From Actinomycetes bacterium (GTDB taxonomy: Bacteria > Actinomycetota > Acidimicrobiia > Spongiisociales > JAHEDJ01): DNA of 64,000 nt. How positions within the stretch are numbered: the stretch's first letter is position 1; each line of letters starts with the position of its first letter. The stretch spans positions 62,001 through 126,000 of the forward strand of contig JAHEDK010000003.1 in NCBI GenBank assembly GCA_024641245.1, in the 5' to 3' direction. Both the position numbers and the translations under genes were made by a program. Under the pieces are notes generated by a model. It saw only the letters and a list, made by a program, of their open reading frames with translations. It was not told where the DNA came from and did not search any database. Below are positions 30,300 through 54,422 of the stretch, in pieces.

Positions 30300-30353
30300 A
30301 AGGCGACTCGCATTCTGGAGGTTCGGACCGAAAACCCACGACAACGCACAAGA

Positions 30354-30445
30354 CATCATCCAGAAAGGTGGAGGGAACAGGCCCTGTGAAACCTTGGCAA
30401 CCATCTCGCTGAGAACGGTGCCAATTCCTGCCCGTGGGAACGGGA

Positions 30446-30454
<9 letters not shown>
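30354..30454 (+). ncRNA. SAM-I riboswitch (S-box leader)
   Basis: The conserved S-box core is easy to read: AGGTGGAGGGAACAGGCCC, TGTGAAACCTTGGCAACC, ACGGTGCCAATTCCTGC and GGGAGAGATGAGG in the right order and spacing. P1 closes by TCATC (30356-30360) with GATGA (30448-30452). Known SAM-I riboswitches bind S-adenosylmethionine and shut off methionine genes; this one precedes metY and metX. The downstream platform appears translational: a hairpin sequesters the metY Shine-Dalgarno (listed separately). Confidence 0.93.
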
Positions 30455-31861
<1,407 letters not shown>

Positions 31862-52410: not shown

Positions 52411-52635
52411 TCAGCGGATCTGGTCGGCGATCTCCTGGTATTCGGCGTGGCGCCCCGTGGCCTTTTTCGAGTAGATCAGCGTCCCATCAACGACTACTTC
52501 GAACACGCCTCCGCGCGAAGGGATCAGCGTGACGGCCTGCGTCTGCTCCTCAAACTCGGTCAGTAACTGCTCGACCATGCGAACCGCACGGTCAAGATAC
52601 CGTCATTGAGCGCAATACTCGATGCTGATGATCAT
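52411..52635 (-). CDS. SelW/Rdx-family selenoprotein candidate (in-frame TGA as selenocysteine)
   Basis: Absent from the ORF track because of an in-frame TGA at 52603-52605. From ATG 52635 (AGGAGG five bases upstream) the frame reads MIISIEYCAQ-U-RYLDRAVRM and continues with VTLIPSRGGVFEVVVDG and LIYSKKATGRHAEYQEIADQIR to TGA at 52411: 74 residues, full length for the SelW/Rdx thioredoxin-fold family. Bacterial Cys homologues read YCxxCRWL here, so TGA falls exactly on the second redox residue (CxxU). A SECIS-like stem-loop follows. It begins 20 bp after the sensor kinase and ends the carboxylase operon. A nonsense mutation is the alternative. Confidence 0.8.
52570..52596 (-). promoter_or_regulatory. 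Candidate bacterial SECIS element
   Basis: Directly downstream of the in-frame TGA, on the coding strand, CTTGACCGTGC pairs with GCATGGTCGAG: 11 consecutive pairs including two G-T wobbles, closing a 5-nt loop GGTTC. The loop begins 17 nt after the TGA and starts with GG, matching the bacterial SECIS rule of an apical loop G about 16-37 nt after the UGA. It would recruit SelB. Confidence 0.75.
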
Positions 52636-52655
52636 GCGACCTCCTGGCGGCGAGC

Positions 52656-54422
52656 CTAGCCGCAGGACACGTCGCTCATTCCCGGTTGCCCAGACGGAAG
52701 GGTGAGGCGGAACACACTTTCGCTGCTCTCTTCGTCGAAGTCGTAGACCAGGTCTCCTGCCATGAGTTTTGCCAGCCGGCGAGACACGGCAAGTCCGAGC
52801 CCCACGGAGGCGGTAACGCCCGGCCGGGCGTGCGCCCTCGCGTACGGTTCGAAGATCCGCTCGCGGTCCTCGTCTGGGATTCCCGGGCCATCGTCGCGCA
52901 CTTCGATCGTAACGACATCGTCGTCGTGGCTGCCGACGATACGTCGCCTCGTCCCCCCGTAGCGGTGCGCATTAGCTATGAGGTTCCTGACGATCTGGCG
53001 GAACCGGACCGGATCGGCGAGCACCTCGCAGTCGCCGACCGGTCGTGTGATCGAATCGTCCCATCCGAACTCTGTGACGATTCGCTCGACGTTCTCTGCG
53101 ACCTTGAATCGCTCGGGGGCGATGCTGATCTGGTTGATATCGGCACGGGCCGCAACGAGCAGGTCCTCAACGATGAACGCCATCTCGCGCGATTGAGCTG
53201 CAATGAGGTCAAGCAGTTCAGCCCGTTCCGAATCAGAGAACTCCATAGACCCGTCAGCGAGTTCTCCGGCCAGGCCGACCACGGCCGTAAGTGGGGTGCG
53301 CAGTTCGTGGCTCACCGAGGCGATGAATTCGTCCTTCGAGCGGATCAAGTCGGCCATCCCGCGGCGGACGCGCATCTCTTCCGTGATGTCGTGGACTGCA
53401 ATCACCAAACGGTCGGGATTCGGCCCGACGCGGAGCGGTCGAATCCACCGGACGTCGACCCAGAGCTGGTCACCGTTGAACGTCACCGTTTCATAGGTGC
53501 ACTCGAAGGTCAGTCTGCCTTCAGTCATCGCCACGACTTCGGAGACCAGGGCCTCCATGGATGTCTCGTTCACCCTGGTGGGCGACATCGGGCCAACCAA
53601 AGCGGCCGGGTCGTCGAGCCCGAGCAGTTCGGCAGCCGCAGCATTGACGCGCACGTAGACGATGCCGGCCGCGAGATCGGCGACCAGTTCCGGGCGGGCG
53701 AGGAGGTACTTCCGCAGTTCCTGCGGATCCTCGATCCCCAGGTTCTCCACCGCTCGCAACGTCGCGCCCCAGTCCTGTTCTAGGAGCGCAACAGGGCTGT
53801 CTTCAAATAGCCGAACGTACCGGCCGGCCGACACTGATGTCGCCAGCCGGACGGACAGCATGATGAGAGCCACCAAACAGAATCCGGTCACGATGGTCGC
53901 GGCCGTGGCCACCCCCTCCTCCGCCCATAGAAAACCGGCCAGCACAAGAAGGGCACCGACCCCGATCACATACGCGAGGCGCCTCGTGTCGACGAACAGC
54001 AGCCCTATACCGCCGATTATGACCAACGCCAGAGATGCCGGCAGCAGCGTGGCGGCCGTGCCGACGAGGGGGTACGTGATCACGACCGAGATGAGCGACA
54101 CGATCAAACTCAGGACAATCTGCCGGCCGCCGGATAAGGCTTGCCAGCCGAAGAGGATCGCAACGATGGCCGGCGTTATAGATTCTAAGAGCTGATCGGT
54201 ACTTCCCGTGAAGAGGCCGGATGTGAAGATCACCAAAGCGGTCAAGGCCGACGCGATGGCCCCCATGCGCATCATGGTCAATCGGACGGTGACAATAGCC
54301 TCCTGGAAGACATCGGTCTCCTCGGGTTTGTACTCAACGAGTGCCCGGAGGGTTTGACGGGTGGTTTTCAGGGTGGTGCTGGGCTCATGGAGCCGGGTTC
54401 CAGCCGGTCGACGATTGTTCAT
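52656..54422 (-). CDS. Membrane PAS sensor histidine kinase coupled to acyl-CoA carboxylase
   Basis: 588 residues. About six transmembrane helices (residues 50-205) precede a PAS domain (about 210-350; AGIVYVRVNAAAAELLGLDDPAAL ... WVDVRWIRPLRVG), then HisKA with SVSHELRTPLTAVVG and HATPase with NLIANAHRYGG, DDGPGIPDEDRERIFEPYARAHA and SVGLGLAV. Its ATG overlaps the biotin carboxylase stop by four bases (ATGA), so it is cotranslated with the carboxylase, and the SelW candidate follows 20 bp later. No response regulator nearby. The kinase core resembles that of 26388-28301. Its signal is unknown. Confidence 0.92.
   Translation of the reverse strand: MNNRRPAGTRLHEPSTTLKTTRQTLRALVEYKPEETDVFQEAIVTVRLTMMRMGAIASALTALVIFTSGLFTGSTDQLLESITPAIVAILFGWQALSGGRQIVLSLIVSLISVVITYPLVGTAATLLPASLALVIIGGIGLLFVDTRRLAYVIGVGALLVLAGFLWAEEGVATAATIVTGFCLVALIMLSVRLATSVSAGRYVRLFEDSPVALLEQDWGATLRAVENLGIEDPQELRKYLLARPELVADLAAGIVYVRVNAAAAELLGLDDPAALVGPMSPTRVNETSMEALVSEVVAMTEGRLTFECTYETVTFNGDQLWVDVRWIRPLRVGPNPDRLVIAVHDITEEMRVRRGMADLIRSKDEFIASVSHELRTPLTAVVGLAGELADGSMEFSDSERAELLDLIAAQSREMAFIVEDLLVAARADINQISIAPERFKVAENVERIVTEFGWDDSITRPVGDCEVLADPVRFRQIVRNLIANAHRYGGTRRRIVGSHDDDVVTIEVRDDGPGIPDEDRERIFEPYARAHARPGVTASVGLGLAVSRRLAKLMAGDLVYDFDEESSESVFRLTLPSGQPGMSDVSCG

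Follow-up and report, generated by a model that had tools for sequence, protein, structure and literature searches.

SelW-like selenoproteins, in which a CxxU redox motif is accompanied by a bacterial SECIS element within the gene, have been known since 2005, when they formed the most abundant family in a Sargasso Sea dataset (PMC1088965), and were described again in 2006 (PMC1794560) and 2008 (PMC2398784). The published model of the bacterial SECIS comprises an apical loop of 3–9 nt, an upper stem of 4–16 bp and a G within the first two loop positions, combined with a spacing of 16–37 nt and a minimum free energy (MFE) of at most −7.5 kcal/mol (PMC13188914). For Acidimicrobiia, a literature search on selenoproteins returned nothing relevant. 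The gene described here lies on the minus strand of a 64,000-nt stretch of DNA (the window) from this class, very probably from an uncultured representative, and adds a member to the family. It shares with the bacterial SelW-like genes (SELENOW-like, PF10262/TIGR02174) the CxxU motif, a UGA-encoded selenocysteine (Sec) and a predicted SECIS just downstream in the coding region, whereas 17 nt separate the UGA from the first base of its loop, the SelW genes examined from other phyla having 4 nt more. The first-pass annotation had proposed a bacterial SECIS for Sec insertion in a redox gene; this proposal is supported. The family in question, SelW/Rdx, has long been recognized among bacterial selenoproteins. 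The features of the locus are as follows.

52656..54422, minus strand: PAS/histidine-kinase gene upstream of selW
52640..52645, minus strand: Shine-Dalgarno sequence AGGAGG, 4 nt ahead of the selW ATG, read from the sequence
52411..52635, minus strand: gene for a SelW-like selenoprotein of the Rdx family, 74 codons, the predicted Sec UGA among them, plus stop; matches to PF10262, TIGR02174 and NF041051
52603..52605, minus strand: in-frame UGA predicted to be read as Sec, second redox residue of CxxU; TGA conserved at the homologous codon of relatives
52586..52596, minus strand: 5' arm of the SECIS, CUUGACCGUGC; conserved core 52586–52591
52581..52585, minus strand: apical loop of the SECIS, GGUUC (N-G-U-N-N); GU invariant in the order
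52570..52580, minus strand: 3' arm of the SECIS, GCAUGGUCGAG; conserved core 52575–52580
52411..52413, minus strand: terminal UGA of selW, an ordinary stop with no SECIS-like hairpin after it, which serves as internal control

Translation through the internal TGA yields a complete SelW/Rdx protein, MIISIEYCAQURYLDRAVRMVEQLL...QIR, with the redox motif YCAQU (CxxU, Cys 8 to Sec 11) near the N-terminus. The Rdx domain PF10262 was recognized with 83.6 bits (E = 1.2e-23; curated cut-off 22.6), and TIGR02174 (E = 6.3e-18) and NF041051 (E = 4.7e-24) matched as well. Nearly the whole product is covered by solved Rdx/SelW-related homologues (PDB 2fa8, 3dex, 2obk, 2oka, and 2p0g; best match 2fa8, E = 8.5e-14), which, as recombinant structural-genomics targets, are presumably Cys forms. 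Between the end of the PAS/histidine-kinase gene and the start codon of selW lie 20 nt, and the two genes are possibly co-transcribed. Elsewhere in the window, a SAM riboswitch (RF00162, 84 bits) is located at 30353–30455 on the plus strand.

Along the minus strand, the TGA (52605–52603) is followed by CGGTAT, CTTGACCGTGC, GGTTC, and GCATGGTCGAG. This order bears out the hairpin drawn by the first-pass annotation, with 11 contiguous base pairs including two G-U wobbles, and a 5-nt loop that starts with GG, 17 nt after the TGA and inside the coding frame. RNAfold, which had been suggested as a check, closed one extra G-C pair and returned 12 bp with a GUU triloop and an additional basal helix, which shifts the spacing to 18 nt. 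The region reached an MFE of −21 kcal/mol (z = −3.4), and none of 200 dinucleotide shuffles was as stable; the hairpin alone (11–12 bp) accounts for −18.0 kcal/mol. In spacing, loop size, loop G, stem length, and energy, the element does not differ from the SECIS consensus model.

The probability of such a hairpin arising by chance was estimated in several ways. Synonymous recodings, with codons sampled from neighbouring genes, gave an equally stable hairpin that also obeyed the SECIS spacing and loop rules in 9 of 5000 cases, and no such hairpin occurred in 2476 in-frame stretches of five neighbouring genes. Across the window, 411 in-frame TGAs have at least 8 open codons upstream and about 45 downstream; a hairpin of −18 kcal/mol or better follows two of them, the selW TGA included. 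Inspection of other window TGAs followed by stable hairpins revealed none in the context of a redox motif. The selW hairpin by itself is thus roughly a 0.5% event among in-frame TGAs, and what makes it compelling is that it sits where a selenoprotein family has its CxxU codon.

Conservation was analyzed on 70 distinct sequences of the order, for which RNAalifold returned a consensus of six pairs and a 5-nt loop. The loop GU is invariant (70/70). Columns 18–28 of the alignment are UA in 60 and CG in 10 sequences and are never broken; columns 15–31 change from CG to UA in four sequences, and columns 17–29 hold GU, GC, or AU. In 109 sequences of the class, the pair 17/27 (0-based, corresponding to columns 18–28) ranked first of 2556 column pairs by APC-corrected mutual information. 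Independent contrasts on a gene tree built without the covarying columns pointed in the same direction in 5.3 of 6 cases for 17/27 and in 4.8 of 7 cases for 14/30, and never in the opposite direction (sign tests, p about 0.06 each). Conservation throughout the order is limited to the loop and the upper six pairs, whereas the lower five are mostly particular to close relatives and are paired in 23–64% of the sequences. As a covarying unit, the full 11-pair stem gave a weak signal, the clear one coming from the RNAalifold consensus core. Over all 11 pairs, the covariation score exceeded that of shuffles (2/500), but the percentage of paired positions did not (179/500), because the lower stem is not conserved. 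The earlier view that chance is an improbable source of the hairpin holds, but the conserved element is the six-pair core and not all 11 pairs.

Stem strength varies among the relatives. The median best hairpin in the order has −9.9 kcal/mol, and the uninterrupted stems of several relatives with TGA are weak, at −4 to −7 kcal/mol, and do not reach the −7.5 demanded by the published model, which the window element passes; the ungapped scan missed some stems with one bulged base, as in genus g125, so that negatives among relatives are no proof of absence. Nearly all Acidimicrobiia carry the loop 17–18 nt after the UGA. A second register, with the loop at 21–22 nt, was found in relatives labelled Firmicutes, Chloroflexi, Planctomycetes, Proteobacteria, and other actinobacterial classes. 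Here the hairpin reads CCGUC-GGUCU-GACGG or a close variant, each of its five pairs being formed in 36–39 of 39 sequences, and the loops outside Acidimicrobiia are GGUCU or AGUUU, with GU as in Acidimicrobiia. Since the protein motif aligns without gaps between both groups, the hairpin has shifted its register within the same codons but retained the N-GU-N-N loop.

These data bear on the possibility that the hairpin is a by-product of the protein motif RAVRMVE and of codon bias, with Sec insertion depending on something else. The motif is indeed conserved, and 7% of the synonymous recodings reach the stability of the native sequence in the median relative of the order, yet the figure for the window gene is only the 9 in 5000 given above, and in other phyla the same protein region carries its hairpin in a different register. 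Moreover, pair 17/27 couples the synonymous third base of an Arg codon to an amino acid change, CGU (Arg) going with AUG (Met) and CGC (Arg) with GCG (Ala), so that the constraint runs from RNA to protein rather than the other way. We therefore consider an origin as a by-product very improbable.

Relatives of selW were detected in 154 of 395 genomes of the class, and all matches covering the site have TGA except the one in G004, which has TGC; neither SelA nor tRNA-Sec was found in that genome. When 84,980 genomes were searched with a query carrying Cys at the Sec position, 35 relatives emerged, and all 35 have TGA at this codon. The first-pass annotation had held that TGA orthologues lacking a stem-loop, or a stem equally conserved in Cys homologues, would speak against a SECIS, and had proposed to compare covariation between the two forms. 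The TGA relatives keep a stem-loop at 17–18 or 21–22 nt, and the stem covaries among them and is mostly absent from the Cys forms. Among 15 Cys homologues from the phylum, with a median best hairpin of −4.0 kcal/mol, only L177, which retains a 7-bp hairpin, passed the SECIS criteria for energy (−7.5) and loop. Within family f61, the Cys forms L174 and L175 read GCCCTCGGCCTGATC and have lost the stem and loop of the SECIS, whereas the Sec members (L180–L186) have the GGUCU hairpin; the genomes with the f61 Cys forms keep SelA. In the phylum-wide sample, neither SelA nor tRNA-Sec was found in 10 of 14 genomes with Cys forms; among the remaining ones, SelA is present in G539, G519, and G646, and tRNA-Sec in G428 and G519. 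Three genomes with TGA (G311, G460, and G558) also gave neither SelA nor tRNA-Sec. Two of these are less than 85% complete and G460 is 98% complete; for G460 (locus L207) and G558 (L206) the absence likely reflects assembly gaps.

The distribution of TGA and Cys is difficult to reconcile with an ordinary stop at the internal TGA, in which case the downstream part would be a separate 55-codon ORF (ATG at 52578) or a decayed remnant, and the hairpin incidental. This ORF exists mechanically, and a plain ORF caller would truncate selW and give only this 55-aa remnant; an equally stable hairpin also follows about 0.5% of the in-frame TGAs of the window. Against this, more than 150 genomes show unbroken protein conservation through the TGA, which is itself conserved, Cys replaces Sec mostly in genomes without the Sec pathway, and the stem covaries. 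Because the codon and the reading frame on both sides of it are conserved, this explanation is refuted in our view and is even less probable than a by-product of the protein motif.

The host assembly (2.7 Mb, 71 contigs) encodes the complete Sec-decoding trait. It comprises tRNA-Sec (71.9 bits, anticodon UCA), SelA (434 bits) immediately before SelB (318 bits), which has the C-terminal winged-helix domain SelB-wing_3, and SelD (399 bits; L083, G000:C70:172097-173026, minus strand). SelD contains an in-frame TGA (GSGUACK) and is thus a predicted selenoprotein itself; 32–33 nt after this TGA follows the hairpin GGCGCAG-GUC-CUGCGCC with the loop GGUCC, so that both selenoprotein genes share the N-GU-N-N pattern. 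For a formate dehydrogenase selenoprotein, only matches below the curated cut-off were obtained, none of them with TGA. A genome-wide code change, by which UGA would be read as Trp or another standard residue, is the least credible explanation, as no support for it was found, UGA terminates selW itself (52413–52411) and the adjoining SpoU methylase gene and thus acts as a stop in the same genes, the alignment partners at the Sec site are Cys (TGC/TGT) and not Trp, and the host has a tRNA-Sec(UCA) gene.

A conserved and covarying hairpin that is lost in Cys homologues, together with the tRNA-Sec, SelA, SelB, and SelD of the host, is best explained by a bacterial SECIS within the coding sequence of an mRNA for a SelW-like selenoprotein (Rdx family), in which the UGA is decoded as Sec; we assign this reading a probability of roughly 96%. 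SelB, loaded with GTP and Sec-tRNA(Sec), would bind the hairpin by its C-terminal winged-helix domain and recognize the GU of the N-GU-N-N loop. With the ribosome at the UGA, 17 nt upstream of the loop, Sec would then be delivered, and the outcome would be a thioredoxin-like CxxU protein with a putative redox role instead of a 10-residue peptide.

A further observation concerns genus g125 (family f42 of the same class; loci L209, L210, L211, L213, and L214–L229). Two in-frame TGAs were counted in 16 of its 20 selW-positive genomes, and the other four have CxxU. Among the 11 of 20 loci displayed by DNA pattern, the motif with two TGAs reads YUVPU in place of YCVPU; the TGA counts cover all 20. 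The two UGAs lie 9 nt apart, at distances of 26 and 17 nt from the loop CGUGA of a hairpin with one bulged base. An assembly error is unlikely, since G322, one of these genomes, consists of a single contig and many assemblies show the trait. The reviews consulted give only CxxU with one Sec for SelW, and UxxU is known from other families (PMC9312934, PMC13188914). Judged from the sequences, the first Cys has probably been replaced by a second Sec in g125, giving a UxxU SelW in which both UGAs would be decoded from one SECIS. More broadly, and with the same good but not full confidence, the SelW SECIS appears to have moved by 4 nt relative to an unchanged protein motif when Acidimicrobiia are compared with other phyla, which would force the choice between Met and Ala.

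At this locus, a real recoding element was found by reading the sequence without tools. The double-Sec SelW of g125 offers a chance to test whether one SECIS serves two nearby UGAs. Beyond this, the family alignment cleanly illustrates how an RNA signal embedded in coding sequence shapes a protein, as the choice among synonymous Arg codons goes together with Met or Ala at the ninth codon after Sec.
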